Positions 43,135 through 48,223 of a stretch of 64,000 nt of DNA are shown here, piece after piece. The translations under genes and the position numbers were made by a program. The notes beneath the pieces were generated by a model. The model saw only the letters and a program-made list of their open reading frames with translations, searched no databases and had not been told where the DNA came from. The stretch covers positions 62,001 through 126,000 of the forward strand of contig NZ_PZPL01000002.1 of assembly GCF_003044275.1 (NCBI RefSeq). The letters are read 5' to 3'. Position 1 is the stretch's first letter. Each line of letters opens with the position of its first letter. Origin of the DNA: Rathayibacter caricis DSM 15933. GTDB taxonomy: Bacteria > Actinomycetota > Actinomycetes > Actinomycetales > Microbacteriaceae.

Positions 43135-44196
43135 CTATCCACTCTGCGGCCGGCGAGCCTCGTCGTCCCTACCGTCAGCAGCGATGGCATCGATCAGGTG
43201 CTGAGCATCCGGGAGCGCACGCTGTTCCTCGGGTGGCAGGGACTCGTAGGTGTAGGTGGCTACGGCCATAGGAGAGTCGACTCGTCCCAGGGCGTAGCGG
43301 ACGATTCGGTCGCTCTTGTCGCCGCAGATGAGGATCCCGACCGTCGGCCGGTGCAGCGCGGCGTCGCGAAGTTGGTCGTCGACGAGCGCGATGTAGAACC
43401 CGAGCTGCCCGGTGAAGGACGGCTCGAACGCGCCCTTTTTCAGCTCGATCACGACGTAGCGGAGCTGACGGACGTGGAAGAAGAGCAGATCGATGTAGAA
43501 GTCCGACCTGTCGACCTCGAAGTGCACCTGTCGACCGACGAAGGCGAAGCCGGCGCCGAGTTCTGCGAGGGTCTGCGTGATCCGGTCCGTAAGTGCCTGC
43601 TCGAAGTCCCGCTCAGCGGCACCTTCAGTCAGGTCGAGGAAGTCGAAGACGTACGGGTCTCTCGCGATCTGCTGCGCCAACTCGGAATCCCCGGCGGGGA
43701 GCCGGTCGAGGAAATTCGACGGAGCCGCCCCGGTGCGTTCCAGGGTTCGGTTCTTGATCTGGTTCAGCAGCACGTCTCGGGACCACCCGAACTCGACCGC
43801 GGATGCCGCGTACCAGTCCCGCCTCTCCTGCTCATCGAGCTTGTCGATGAGGACCCGGATGTGACCCCACGGCAAATGTGCCACGGGCTGTGGCACATTT
43901 CGGAGGTCAGCCCACCCGGCCGCGAAGGACCGCATGTACAGCAGGTTCCGGCGCGACAACCCCGTCATCGTCGGGAACTCAGCACGCAGGTCATCGGCGA
44001 GACGACCGACCACACCGCTCCCCCATGCGTGCGCGTCCTGCTGACGAAGGATCTCGTGCCCGATGCTCCAGTATAGCTCGATCAGTTGCGTGTTGACCGT
44101 TCGCTGCGCCGTGTACTGCGCCGTGCGGACTTGGTCCTTGAGCCGAATCAGCACGACCGCGTAGTCGGCGGGGAGGCTAACGGCGTCAGAAGGCAT
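43135..44196 (-). CDS. YhcG/DUF1016-family PDDEXK nuclease
   Basis: A 353-residue protein of the YhcG family. The N-terminal domain begins with TVNTQLIELYWSIGHEIL and includes LPWGHIRVLIDKL. The C-terminal PDDEXK nuclease core contains FYIDLLFFH (Asp236) and VVIELKKGAFEP (Glu251, Lys253), then GQLGFYIALVDDQL. Family members are often found on mobile elements and near restriction systems; their cellular role is unsettled. It stands at the edge of the mobilisation module with no restriction-modification partner. A longer or shorter start is possible, but the present ATG lies close to the first conserved block. Confidence 0.9.
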   Translation of the reverse strand: MPSDAVSLPADYAVVLIRLKDQVRTAQYTAQRTVNTQLIELYWSIGHEILRQQDAHAWGSGVVGRLADDLRAEFPTMTGLSRRNLLYMRSFAAGWADLRNVPQPVAHLPWGHIRVLIDKLDEQERRDWYAASAVEFGWSRDVLLNQIKNRTLERTGAAPSNFLDRLPAGDSELAQQIARDPYVFDFLDLTEGAAERDFEQALTDRITQTLAELGAGFAFVGRQVHFEVDRSDFYIDLLFFHVRQLRYVVIELKKGAFEPSFTGQLGFYIALVDDQLRDAALHRPTVGILICGDKSDRIVRYALGRVDSPMAVATYTYESLPPEEQRALPDAQHLIDAIAADGRDDEARRPQSG

Positions 44197-44427
44197 GAGA
44201 TCGATTCTCCCGCAAGTCTCGAAGCGTGCTGACGAGCTACCTGCCCTGCTCAGGCCGTTCGCGCGGCTCCACGCGAGCGCGCTCAGAGCTGTCGTAGACG
44301 ACCTCGCCCTCAGCCCGAGCAGCCATCACCCCTAGGCCGTGAAGTGACATATTCTCCATTATCGGAGGCTCACTGGAAAACGAGCGAAGAATGTCGACGC
44401 GCTTTGGCCCCAACGGTGTTCGCTTGA

Positions 44428-44443
44428 ATACCTATGTAGGTAT
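44428..44443. promoter_or_regulatory. Perfect palindrome upstream of the small proline-rich ORF
   Basis: ATACCTATGTAGGTAT is a perfect 7-bp inverted repeat with a TG centre. It is AT-rich against a high-GC background and lies 185 bases before the 27-codon ORF. It could be the operator of a regulator or a promoter element. The region 44197-44427 holds nothing else recognised. Confidence 0.45.
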
Positions 44444-44509
44444 CTAGGTGCCGGCGGGGACGCGCGTCTATGTGTCGGTCGTGTCGGCGTGCATCCTCAT
44501 GAGCACATT

Positions 44510-44600
44510 GGAGATGGGCGCAATCCCCACCTGGCAGGGATGCCGGTGGCTGATGGACTGAGGCATCTCCAGCCAATCCCCATTTCGTAGTTCCACACTG
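44510..44600 (+). ncRNA. Candidate structured leader upstream of the proline-rich ORF
   Basis: GGAGATG (44510-44516) can pair with CATCTCC (44564-44570); GATGGG (44513-44518) can instead pair with CCCCAT (44577-44582). The two pairings exclude each other. The stretch also holds a 20-codon start-to-stop frame from ATG 44500. This kind of alternate pairing is seen in attenuator and antisense-controlled leaders. A folding calculation is needed to support it. Confidence 0.35.
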
Positions 44601-44628
44601 ATGGCCCTGAACGCAAAGGAGCATTCTC

Positions 44629-44712
44629 ATGGGACAGCAGCAGAATCCGCCGCCGAAGCCGCCGTCGACGCCCGGGCCGAACCAGCCCAACCCGTTGGGT
44701 AATCCGCACTGA
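44629..44712 (+). CDS. 27-residue proline/asparagine/glutamine-rich small protein
   Basis: ATG 44629 stands nine bases after AAAGGAG, a near-perfect ribosome site, and reads 27 codons to TGA. The product begins MGQQQNPPPKPP and ends PNPLGNPH: eleven prolines, no hydrophobic stretch, one lysine. It should be extended and soluble. A perfect 18-bp terminator follows 14 bases later, so this is a self-contained transcription unit lying convergent to the relaxase operon. I do not recognise the family. The ribosome site, stop and terminator make a real gene likely. Confidence 0.65.
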   Translation: MGQQQNPPPKPPSTPGPNQPNPLGNPH

Positions 44713-44725
44713 TCGACGTAAACGA

Positions 44726-44765
44726 GGAAGGGCCCGCGACACCTGATGGTGTCGCGGGCCCTTCC
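44726..44765 (+). terminator. 18-bp perfect terminator, probably bidirectional
   Basis: GGAAGGGCCCGCGACACC (44726-44743) pairs perfectly with GGTGTCGCGGGCCCTTCC (44748-44765) across a TGAT loop and is followed by TGTTTCGG. It lies between the small ORF and the 3' end of the convergent relaxase operon, and can end both transcripts. It is the strongest hairpin I noted in the window. Confidence 0.88.
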
Positions 44766-44775
44766 TGTTTCGGCG

Positions 44776-46080
44776 TCAGCGGCCGGGTTCGGATCGTTCG
44801 ATCTGGCGGCCCTGCCCACGTCCGCCGCGCGTCGACGGGACTGGTGTGCGCGCGGCGGGGTCCGCTCCACGAGCGGGAGTCGCGAAGGAGGCGTCCATGG
44901 TCATTCGCGCGTTGATTTGCTCCTGCGGGACGTCCTGGGCCTGCATCGCGTTCGCGGTGTGCGCCCGGCGCTCGGCGCTGTCATATGCGAGTTCCCCTTC
45001 GGAACGGGCCGCGGCTGCACGTCCCTCGTCCGCCGCCGCAGGAACGCCGTCAGGGGCGCTTTGGATGCCGCGATCGTCGCGGTAGAGGGCGACCTGGGAT
45101 CGAGCGTCCTCGGCCAGGGTGCGCAGCTCCTCGGGGCTCTGCGTGGGCGTACCGCCGACCTCCGCGTCGCGGTCGTACTGGGCGGCCTGCTGCTCGAGCT
45201 CGTCGGCGCGCCGCGCGGCGTCGATCGGGATCTCGGTCGGTGTGACCTGGGCGGATGCGTCGTTGGCGCGGTCGAGCCGGTCGGCTTCCGCGATCAGCAG
45301 TTGCGCCTCCGTGACCTCCGCTCCCGCTCGAACATGCTCGGGAGCTACCGTGTCCTTCCACTCCTCGACCAGCGCGGCTCGTGCAGCTGCGACGGCCGCG
45401 GGGTCCGCGGTGCGGAACTCTCCGTCGTTCCAGTCGATCGACGTCTGCACGCGGTAGTCCTGGAACCCGGCCGGGTCGGTGTCGCGCTTCCATTCCTCGG
45501 CCGCGGAGAGTTCGAGGGTGCCGGCGTCGCCTGCAAGCGCCGCGCGGTAGTCGGTGATCAGAGCGCGCTCCGCGTTCACGTCCGGCTCTGCGCGGCCGCG
45601 TATGTCCATGGTGAGGCGGTCGTCGTCGTGGCGGTGGTAGTGCTCCGGCGCGGAGTTGGTGGCCCATTCCTTCGCCCGGTCCAGCTCTGACTTCGCCTGA
45701 CCGGCGGCGTCGCGCAGCACGGCGGTATCGACGCCGTAGCGCTCGAACACTTCGTGCTGCACGAGGACCGACGCGCGCTCCGCGATCGGGTCGTGGTTCT
45801 TCCACGCCTGCGCCGTCTCCGCGACCTTCGAGATGTCTTGGATGCTCGCCTTCTCCCACCAGTCGGGCCGGTCCGCAACCTGCAACGTCGCGCGTGCAGC
45901 GCCGCGCTCGGCGTCGAAACGGGCCGACAGCTCGCGCGCCTGCGCGGCGGAGCGTGCCTGCGCGTCGCGGGCCAGCTCCTCGCGCAGCCGGGCGAACTTC
46001 TCACCCATCTGCATCGCGATCGTCAACGCGATCCGGACGTTCTGACCGACCTCCTGGCCTACCTCGTCGTCGTCACTCAT
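44776..46080 (-). CDS. Coiled-coil protein of the mobilisation operon
   Basis: A 434-residue, very hydrophilic protein rich in Ala, Arg, Glu and Asp. Long helical stretches with coiled-coil character are seen at about residues 20-70 (GEKFARLREELARDAQAR) and 290-350 (ARRADELEQQAAQYDRDAE). The C-terminus is a basic, disordered tail. There is no signal peptide or membrane segment. It is the third gene of the MobC-relaxase operon, 29 bases after the relaxase. Proteins of this type are common beside actinobacterial relaxases but have no assigned function; a role in relaxosome assembly or as a transferred partner is possible. Confidence 0.75.
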   Translation of the reverse strand: MSDDDEVGQEVGQNVRIALTIAMQMGEKFARLREELARDAQARSAAQARELSARFDAERGAARATLQVADRPDWWEKASIQDISKVAETAQAWKNHDPIAERASVLVQHEVFERYGVDTAVLRDAAGQAKSELDRAKEWATNSAPEHYHRHDDDRLTMDIRGRAEPDVNAERALITDYRAALAGDAGTLELSAAEEWKRDTDPAGFQDYRVQTSIDWNDGEFRTADPAAVAAARAALVEEWKDTVAPEHVRAGAEVTEAQLLIAEADRLDRANDASAQVTPTEIPIDAARRADELEQQAAQYDRDAEVGGTPTQSPEELRTLAEDARSQVALYRDDRGIQSAPDGVPAAADEGRAAAARSEGELAYDSAERRAHTANAMQAQDVPQEQINARMTMDASFATPARGADPAARTPVPSTRGGRGQGRQIERSEPGR

Positions 46081-46109: not shown

Positions 46110-47816
46110 CTATCGGCCACGGTCGCCGCGGTCCTGGTCAGGTCCCTGCCGAGACTGTCGGGCGCGGTCCGCGAGCATCGCTTCCTCGCGCTCCCGGTCA
46201 GCCTTGGTGAGCTTCGTGGGCACGGGACTGCCCGACCCGAAGTTGGTCTGGGACAGCCGTCGAACGTCTTTGAGCTCCTCCGGGAGCGCCTGCCAGGCCC
46301 GCTCGTTCTCCGCGACCTTCTCGGCCTTCACGACGACCTGGTAGCCATCGCGTACAGCGGACAACTGACCCCGCAACGTCTGCGACAGCTCGCGCATCCG
46401 TCGCGCATCACCGGCTGCCTTGTGAGCCGACGCGACCGCGTGCGTCAAGCGCGCGAACTGGTTCAGCAGCAGCAGCTCCGCGGCTGCATTCTTCTTGTTC
46501 CCCGCCGCGGCCATGATCAGTGCGGAGTACGCCGCCGTCGAGGGCATCATCGCGGGCCGCGGGCGCGTCTCGTGCGCCCGAAGGTGCGCCGAGCGGGCGA
46601 GCGATCGCGCAGCGTCCGCGAGCGGTCCCGGGGTGGGCTCCATGCGCCGGGACCACGCCGCGTAGGCGCCGGCCGTCTCGCGCGCGACGTGCGCCCACGT
46701 GGCCTTGTCGGAGGGGTCCACGGACCTGATGTAGTCGTGCAGCCGGTCCATGTCCGCCGCGTACGCCTCGAACAGCTCGGGGGCCGGCTCCGCCGTCTCC
46801 CGGCCAGGGTTGACCGGCGTGTACTGCCAGGGATTCTTCGCTGTAGCGCGCCATTCGGATGCCGCATCCGACGCGGACTCCGGCTGGTCCGGCCAGCCCT
46901 TCCGCAGCTCCGGCAAGGTCAGGTCGCGCGCGAGCCGGCCGCCGCCGTGCCAGATCGCCTTCTCGCCGTTCGTCGGCCGCAGCGCGACCGAGTAGCCGGC
47001 GATCACATCATCACGGCCCGTCGCGAAACGAGGCCGCACCAGCACCCCGCCCTGGCGCAGACGGCGAACGAACTCGCTCTCATCCTGCGACGCGGATGAG
47101 GCAGCGCGCACCGCGCGCTCGAGGCGCTGCATGTCTGGCTCGACGTGCCCGCGACGTGCAGCGGACTCACGCGCTCCCGGCCGCACACCGCGCTCCGGGA
47201 ACTCGCGCTCCGGCGCCTGGTAGACCTGCAACCCGTACTCGCGCTCCAGCTCACGGCTGATCGTCTGCGACCGCTCGTAGTCCTTGTGCACCGACGCTTT
47301 CGTGCCGTCCTCGCGCACCAGCGACACGGCGATGTGCACGTGGTCGTTGCCGTTCTTCGACAGGCCATGACGCACCGCGACCCACCGGCAATCGGCCTTG
47401 CCGATGTCCTCGCCGGCGAACCCCATCCGCTGCACGAAGTCGGTCGAGATTCGGCCCCACTGCTCGTCTGTGAGCTGGCCCTCCTCCGCCGCCAGCGACA
47501 GCGAGCAATGCCACACATCCGCCGCCACGCGATCCTTCACGATCGCGCCGGCCGAGTCCCGAACAGCCTCGCCGTCCTCGTCGGTGCGCACCTTGTTGCG
47601 CGTCACCTCGACGCCGAACAGCTCCCGCGGTCGGTCCAGATCCGCAGCGATCGCCGCAGCCGCAGCGCCGTCCAAAACCTCATGCCCGTACTCAGCCATG
47701 ATCGCGGAATCCCCCGCGATCAGGTGCTGCTCCTCGTGCTCGTTCGTCTTACCGGGACCGACGAGGTAGCCCATCAGTCCACGCATGCGCGTGCCGCGCG
47801 TGATGTTCGTTCTCAC
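46110..47816 (-). CDS. Relaxase / mobilisation nuclease (MobA/VirD2-like)
   Basis: A 568-residue relaxase that would nick oriT and lead the transferred strand. MRGLMGYLVGPGKTNEH at the N-terminus holds a candidate catalytic Tyr17, and the HUH-type metal motif is RHGLSKNGNDHVHIAV (His150, His159, His161). The C-terminal half is helical and basic. GTG 47816 overlaps the MobC stop (GTGA). No type IV coupling protein or secretion genes are seen, so the element is mobilisable rather than self-transmissible. The family matches relaxases of actinobacterial integrative elements and plasmids. Confidence 0.92.
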   Translation of the reverse strand: MRTNITRGTRMRGLMGYLVGPGKTNEHEEQHLIAGDSAIMAEYGHEVLDGAAAAAIAADLDRPRELFGVEVTRNKVRTDEDGEAVRDSAGAIVKDRVAADVWHCSLSLAAEEGQLTDEQWGRISTDFVQRMGFAGEDIGKADCRWVAVRHGLSKNGNDHVHIAVSLVREDGTKASVHKDYERSQTISRELEREYGLQVYQAPEREFPERGVRPGARESAARRGHVEPDMQRLERAVRAASSASQDESEFVRRLRQGGVLVRPRFATGRDDVIAGYSVALRPTNGEKAIWHGGGRLARDLTLPELRKGWPDQPESASDAASEWRATAKNPWQYTPVNPGRETAEPAPELFEAYAADMDRLHDYIRSVDPSDKATWAHVARETAGAYAAWSRRMEPTPGPLADAARSLARSAHLRAHETRPRPAMMPSTAAYSALIMAAAGNKKNAAAELLLLNQFARLTHAVASAHKAAGDARRMRELSQTLRGQLSAVRDGYQVVVKAEKVAENERAWQALPEELKDVRRLSQTNFGSGSPVPTKLTKADREREEAMLADRARQSRQGPDQDRGDRGR

Positions 47817-48223
47817 CGTCCACCGAGCCGGTCTGCCGTCGCCTCGATCAGGCGTCGCACCCGTCGGTACTCCTCCGCAGCCTCAACGGCCTCGGCCGGG
47901 AACTGGCCCGTGCTGTTCGCGAACCGCGCGAGCTGGTTCATGTTGTCCGACGTCTTCTGCAACAGCTTCGACACCCGGAACAGCTCAGCAACCACCAACC
48001 GCCACTCCGTGTCCGTGCGCACCTGGGCGTTCATCGCGGACTCGAACAGCAGTCGCGGCACCGTCACTTCCAGCACCTCGGCACGGGCGCGCAGGTGCGC
48101 ATCCTCCTCGGGCGTGACCGACACCTCGTAGCGCTTCGACCGCGCAGCGACACCGGGCACGTTCGCGCGACGGCGCCGGCCGAACAACCGACCCTCTCGT
48201 GACGACTCCGACACGACCCTCAC
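47813..48223 (-). CDS. MobC-type relaxosome accessory protein
   Basis: A protein of about 136 residues. A basic N-terminus (EGRLFGRRRRAN) is followed by SKRYEVSVTPEEDAHLRARAE, which is the ribbon-helix-helix entry, and then by the MobC core NMNQLARFANSTGQFPAEAVEAAEEYRRVRRL. GTG 48223 or GTG 48214 may be the start; GGAAGGAC precedes the first. MobC proteins bind oriT and help the relaxase open the strands. The oriT-like repeats lie directly upstream. Its stop overlaps the relaxase start. Confidence 0.88.
   Translation of the reverse strand: MRVVSESSREGRLFGRRRRANVPGVAARSKRYEVSVTPEEDAHLRARAEVLEVTVPRLLFESAMNAQVRTDTEWRLVVAELFRVSKLLQKTSDNMNQLARFANSTGQFPAEAVEAAEEYRRVRRLIEATADRLGGR

Follow-up and report, generated by a model that had tools for sequence, protein, structure and literature searches.

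The window analysed here, a stretch of 64,000 nucleotides, corresponds to bases 62001-126000 of contig C2 (NZ_PZPL01000002.1; 251,932 bp), one of the two contigs of the 4.12 Mb genome of Rathayibacter caricis DSM 15933, a member of the Microbacteriaceae within the Micrococcales. Because the termini of C2 share a near-identical overlap of 5.45 kb (99.85% identity, 8 gaps), the contig most likely represents a plasmid, circular and approximately 246 kb in size, that was left unclosed in the assembly. The locus described below contains a very short gene for a proline-rich peptide, which is located between a YhcG/DUF1016 nuclease-like gene and a mobilisation module (Table 1).

Table 1. Features of the microprotein locus and its surroundings (positions within the window).
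Feature	Position	Strand	Basis
YhcG/DUF1016 nuclease-like gene, PADLOC candidate defence PDC-S02	43135..44196	-	Pfam, PADLOC
Coiled-coil gene relic (3' part)	44279..44323	-	AARAEGEVVYDSSER vs AARSEGELAYDSAER, E 5e-4
AT-rich palindrome ATACCTATGTAGGTAT	44428..44443	.	Repeat counts, simulated windows
Candidate 37-codon GTG ORF	44448..44561	+	Codon score, GC3
Shine-Dalgarno AAAGGAG, ATG 7 nt downstream	44615..44621	+	Sequence
27-codon microprotein gene, product MGQQQNPPPKPPSTPGPNQPNPLGNPH	44629..44712	+	Six relatives, codon-position differences
Perfect hairpin, 19-bp stem, loop TGAT	44725..44766	.	Sequence, hairpin scan
Convergent coiled-coil gene, mobilisation module	44776..46080	-	434 aa, no Pfam match
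Relaxase gene	46110..47816	-	Pfam Relaxase
MobC/NikA-like relaxosome protein, start coordinate provisional	47813..48163	-	Pfam

The initial annotation, made from the window sequence, had reported this ORF with its AAAGGAG ribosome site and the convergent coiled-coil neighbour, all of which were confirmed; the eleven prolines it had counted are in fact 10 among 27 residues. The peptide is weakly basic, with a GRAVY of -1.78 and a top 15-residue hydropathy of -1.47, it lacks Cys, and its hydropathy profile displays no hydrophobic, signal-like or membrane stretch. No match was obtained against Pfam, PHROGs and Rfam models or PDB sequences, in agreement with the earlier statement that no family could be recognised, and literature searches retrieved no paper on the peptide. 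A sigma-70 consensus scan of both strands of 44100-44900 detected no promoter. The codon usage of the ORF scores -0.28 bits/codon, against -0.11 for one other forward frame and 0.04 for one reverse frame; little weight was placed on these values, since the composition of the peptide is so biased.

Six relatives having the same ending were found, in Rathayibacter Leaf185, Amnibacterium, a Microbacteriaceae metagenome-assembled genome (MAG), Aeromicrobium, on a plasmid of Microbacterium, and as a single protein from a metagenome. Five of them show 78-89% identity to the window peptide, with the stop at the identical position. The C-terminal consensus of the family, PPKPPS-[TK]-PG-[PT]-x-QPNPL-[GV]-[KN]-PH, reaches the stop codon, and all seven copies end in NPL-[GV]-[KN]-PH; a PPP triplet is present in six of the seven and missing from the copy of Microbacterium sp. 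J1-1. A ribosome-site match of at least five bases precedes four of the six copies available as DNA (window, Amnibacterium, Aeromicrobium and J1-1), and the same scan was negative for the two copies with a GTG start (Leaf185 and the MAG).

The distribution of the family was scrutinized at several taxonomic levels. At the level of the genus, the protein search was positive for two of 15 genomes, the source genome and Leaf185. Ten of 398 family genomes matched at E <=0.1, four of them at E <=4.6e-6 (source, Leaf185, Amnibacterium and the MAG); we take the remaining six, at E >=0.046, to be chance matches, and the one among these that was translated on the matching strand was partial and without the tail. 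The exact pattern P-x-x-PGP-x-QPNPL occurred in nine stretches among 84,980 species genomes, four of which are true family members (Leaf185, Amnibacterium flavum, the MAG and Aeromicrobium ginsengisoli) and five are unrelated frames. Aeromicrobium belongs to the Propionibacteriales, an order distinct from that of Rathayibacter. With the Amnibacterium ORF taken in an extended form of 42 aa as query, one protein was retrieved from 5.8 billion, 31 aa in length and ending in PPPKPPSTPGTGQPNPLGKPH. Profile searches revealed no new member: among 396 genomes of the order 24 matched at E <=0.05, only the source genome falling below E 0.004, and none of the 13 of 28 other places that were translated had the family layout; among 294 genomes of the Aeromicrobium family the single match was Aeromicrobium itself, and among 296 genomes of the class it was the source genome.

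The initial annotation had suggested a search of actinobacterial plasmids. At the DNA level this gave a single match, on the plasmid of Microbacterium sp. J1-1, which covered the ORF alone. The J1-1 copy translates as MGNQQQPPKPPSKPGPGQPNPLGKPH-stop; the record, whose gene table is incomplete, has no annotated gene at the site. Translated searches of plasmids and phages with the 27-aa peptide gave no match, likely as the result of a low-complexity filter; they are no proof of absence, because the J1-1 plasmid does carry a copy. The window ORF matched 30 phage records at the DNA level, none with at least 80% query coverage (20 listed, E 0.006 to 0.9). The DNA of the Aeromicrobium copy had no match among plasmids and one 23-base match among phages (E 0.9), and three patterns searched against viral contigs gave one match, which was not of the family once translated. 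As far as these sequence searches reach, the family is genuine and rare.

The differences among the six DNA copies are concentrated at third codon positions, with 40/47/225 differences at positions 1/2/3 over the 15 pairs, a dominance that points to selection maintaining the protein. Because some of the copies came from protein-similarity searches, the count was repeated without the search-pattern codons, giving 32/47/143; the J1-1 copy, found by DNA alone, differs from the window at 3/3/11. The flanks of the copies, compared over 300 nt on the upstream side and 150 nt on the downstream side, showed no DNA similarity. A chance ORF, a piece of some longer protein or an RNA function to which the ORF is incidental might be suspected from the very short length and from a frame that codon usage does not favour, but this explanation is very improbable: seven similar peptides share the same end, third-position differences are in excess, and no longer protein bearing the tail occurs among the nine genome matches or as the 31-aa metagenome candidate. 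Judged by comparison of the copies, the 27-codon ORF is thus established as a genuine gene under selection at the protein level, and the occurrence of near-identical tiny proteins in unrelated places in a handful of other actinobacteria argues that the gene is both real and mobile. The suggestion of a small-peptide gene is in this respect strongly supported, the peptide being conserved although its neighbourhoods are unrelated. Strong selection has kept this protein of about 27 residues in two orders of the Actinomycetes, and the absence of a listed gene from the one annotated record examined, even with its incomplete table, illustrates that selected coding sequences may sit under the cut-offs of gene callers.

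The ORFs surrounding the other copies showed no match to the 34-56 kb region of the window at E <=1e-3. The Leaf185 and MAG loci have in common a large protein (37.7% identity over 608 aa) as well as a Cys-rich peptide that starts with MACAC. Leaf185 further shares an ABC-type ATPase match with Amnibacterium, several kb away, a weak match with J1-1 (E 9e-5) and a 20-aa match with Aeromicrobium (E 0.001), which we take to be unrelated to the microprotein gene. The large protein, of approximately 805 aa, adjoins the Leaf185 copy (L025:7051-9465, minus strand); in the MAG it shares the contig of the copy and is cut by the contig end (L027:4549-6351, plus strand). It is rare, with at least 10 members, its own entry included, among the best 8000 candidates, and has a further partial match in Leaf185 (G003:C4); Pfam, NCBIfam, PADLOC and PHROGs gave no match to it. 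Near the Leaf185 and MAG copies, very short Cys-rich ORFs preceded by ribosome-site matches were also noted (L025:9784-9897, L025:10146-10232 and L027:3057-3173); they are of two types, MACAC... in Leaf185 and the MAG, and MAKSNCC... in Leaf185. The MACAC type matched nine of 398 family genomes at E <=0.01, reaching E <=4e-12 in Leaf185 and the MAG only and E >=0.0012 in the seven others, and was found on no plasmid; both genomes with a clear MACAC peptide carry the proline-rich ORF.

A tiny same-strand ORF lies directly upstream of the copy in three of the six loci (Leaf185, Aeromicrobium and the MAG), the one in the MAG having been identified by eye and not passing the ribosome-site scan. 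The Aeromicrobium upstream ORF (L018:3567-3731) encodes a charged 54-aa peptide, to which a protein of Lentzea is related at 65% identity. As no neighbour recurs at every locus, any partner of the microprotein is expected to be encoded by the host; a nearby partner is conceivable in Leaf185, Aeromicrobium and the MAG, given the small upstream ORFs and the proteins common to Leaf185 and the MAG.

Relatives of the coiled-coil gene were found in 22 of 149 genomes and on 100 plasmid records, two of which matched over at least 80%, both from Rathayibacter festucae. On both festucae plasmids mobC, the relaxase gene and the coiled-coil gene are succeeded by a DUF4913 gene in convergent orientation, and a hairpin separates it from the coiled-coil gene. 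The DUF4913 gene lies within 69 and 58 bp of the coiled-coil gene, so that these sister modules have no space for the ORF. Four further genomes with close coiled-coil genes (G006, G007, G009 and G011) gave no match to the peptide in the genus search. In Leaf185, contig C7 repeats the arrangement of the window, with the coiled-coil gene next to a YhcG gene at a distance of approximately 420 bp, and the sole copy of the ORF is on a different contig. The microprotein gene was consequently rejected as a part of the mobilisation module, as sister modules exist without it, and YhcG is not a partner by position, because C7 of Leaf185 has YhcG beside the coiled-coil gene and no microprotein gene there. 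The coiled-coil relic at 44279-44323, which has DNA matches at three sister loci as well, is indicative of past recombination in the interval that separates YhcG from the coiled-coil gene now present, and it was probably here that the microprotein gene arrived.

The sequence upstream of the ORF had been described as a structured leader with mutually exclusive pairings. Both motif pairs exist (GGAGATG at 44510 with CATCTCC at 44564, and GATGGG at 44513 with CCCCAT at 44578), the second pairing over 5 bp only; the leader is no more structured than expected by chance, with fold z-scores against simulated sequences of 0.23 (44444-44628), -0.07 (44500-44600) and 0.06 (44500-44628). A structured switching leader was rejected on the basis of these values and of the unconserved flanks. 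The fold of the whole unit, hairpin included, has a z-score of -3.06. The hairpin is the longest perfect one in the window and is located 9 nt past the end of the coiled-coil gene; the stem that the initial annotation gave as an 18-bp terminator is present and perfect over 19 bp, but its T-tract (TGTTTCGG) is weak and a terminator scan of 44100-44900 listed nothing. Within the first 100 nt behind the other copies, the uninterrupted stem measures 16 bp in Amnibacterium and at most 7 bp in the other four, with a longer interrupted hairpin predicted behind the Aeromicrobium copy.

These observations bear on a cis-acting leader or arrest peptide, in which stalling of the ribosome at the prolines or at the stop codon would control a downstream gene or the hairpin. 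The PPP triplet in six of seven copies, the conservation up to the stop, the hairpin close behind the window ORF and the same-strand ORF behind the Leaf185 and Aeromicrobium copies are all compatible with such a role; the next gene is convergent in the window, Amnibacterium and J1-1, which leaves no target downstream, the J1-1 copy lacks PPP, and neither the flanks nor the leader are conserved, the leader fold being near z 0. We therefore give little credence to this explanation.

The 16-bp AT-rich palindrome was found as reported, with 7-bp arms around TG and 14 of its 16 bases paired. Fourteen such 7+2+7 repeats exist in the window, this one alone having AT-rich arms, and 10 simulated windows contained no AT-rich repeat of this form; with up to three mismatches 0.07 sites are expected in the window and one was observed. 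The exact palindrome occurred in five of 99 loci examined, those of the other copies included, and all five overlap the window site. A search of 15 genus genomes for its core TACCTANNTAGGTA gave six sites, spread over four genomes; the reversed pattern, used as a control, gave no site. One of the six is that of the window, two lie on either side of a ParA-like ATPase gene together with the small gene behind it, whose product looks like a ribbon-helix-helix protein with no Pfam match, and three have common flanks, the one tested adjoining a DUF3560 gene. The recurrence of the core by parA-like and DUF3560 genes led us to reject the palindrome as the microprotein gene's own operator, and it is likely a binding site or hairpin element carried by plasmids that does not specifically mark this gene. 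Long palindromes sharing the core TACCTATATAGGTA were also noted on both sides of the parA-like operon of one genome (G011:C7, 10001 and 11164), where they may serve in partition or as operators; on C2, the G011-type parA has no close counterpart, with a 27% match only. The 37-codon candidate ORF starts 5 nt after the palindrome and had no match among plasmids. Its GC3 is 0.87 and its codon score of 0.038 bits/codon exceeds the 95th percentile for out-of-frame pieces and falls short of the 5th for in-frame pieces, these percentiles having been computed with one more training gene than the score. The palindrome, leader, ORF and terminator had been regarded as one self-contained regulated unit; this view is not upheld, as the leader and flanks are unconserved, the leader folds no better than chance, the palindrome core recurs elsewhere in the genus, and sister modules lack the gene.

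The reading we favour, with reasonable though limited confidence, is that of a rare cargo microprotein gene whose product is a soluble intracellular peptide acting in trans, likely on a host-encoded partner. The gene is regarded as cargo, located between the YhcG-like candidate defence gene and the mobilisation module of the approximately 246-kb plasmid and in unrelated places elsewhere; the peptide is predicted to be soluble, extended (polyproline-like) and intracellular, and its conserved core and C-terminal tail may dock onto the host-encoded partner in trans. Alternatively, the ORF could specify a precursor whose C-terminal part is released to act outside the cell as a secreted or modified peptide, for example a signal, a bacteriocin or a RiPP-like product; this would account for the short, strongly conserved C-terminal part with its freer N-terminus and for the patchy distribution. 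Such a precursor is nevertheless rather unlikely, as the window peptide has no signal-like hydrophobic stretch, the loci compared have no common neighbour and hence no shared maturation or export gene, and nearly the entire peptide is conserved, unlike the usual precursors composed of a leader plus core. A RiPP precursor has its maturation enzyme nearby, and none was found among the selected neighbours scanned with Pfam.

A soluble cargo peptide acting in trans can be set beside several known groups. Type I toxins and plasmid entry-exclusion peptides are encoded by tiny plasmid genes and are membrane peptides or lipoproteins, type I toxins being hydrophobic and membrane-spanning with an antisense RNA as antitoxin. 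The gene described here resembles them as a tiny gene on a plasmid, but with a GRAVY of -1.78 and no hydrophobic stretch its product does not, and its strong hydrophilicity makes the toxin and entry-exclusion roles that had been proposed a poor fit. Copy control, for which a leader peptide lies directly upstream of a rep gene, fits poorly as well; the next gene here is the convergent coiled-coil gene and not rep. Arrest and leader peptides such as TnaC also have a short ORF with a conserved C-terminus, and prolines are known to slow ribosomes, but in contrast to these, three of our loci (window, Amnibacterium and J1-1) have no same-strand gene next downstream.

Type II proline-rich antimicrobial peptides (the apidaecin group) arrest terminating ribosomes. 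According to two reports (PMC11347161, PMC11549390), they have a PRPPHPRL tail, of which the penultimate Arg and the final Leu are critical, and the apidaecin-type peptides are insect products cut from polyproteins. A bacterial counterpart of these insect peptides, which would bind the nascent-chain exit tunnel of the ribosome in trans, would suit a proline-rich, weakly basic peptide with a conserved C-terminal part, as is described for apidaecin-like peptides in the same reports; as the peptide lacks the PRPPHPRL tail, the penultimate arginine and the last leucine, such a role is quite improbable. Likewise, it is only a slender prospect that the mobile proline-rich peptide enters a conserved intracellular machine, for example the exit tunnel, from within the cell and modulates it to the advantage of the element or its host. 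The likeness to the apidaecin group is one of composition and layout only, comprising the short length, the richness in proline and an important C-terminal part, whereas the microprotein differs from that group in being encoded by a bacterial gene that has a start and a stop of its own, and in its tail QPNPL-[GV]-[KN]-PH.
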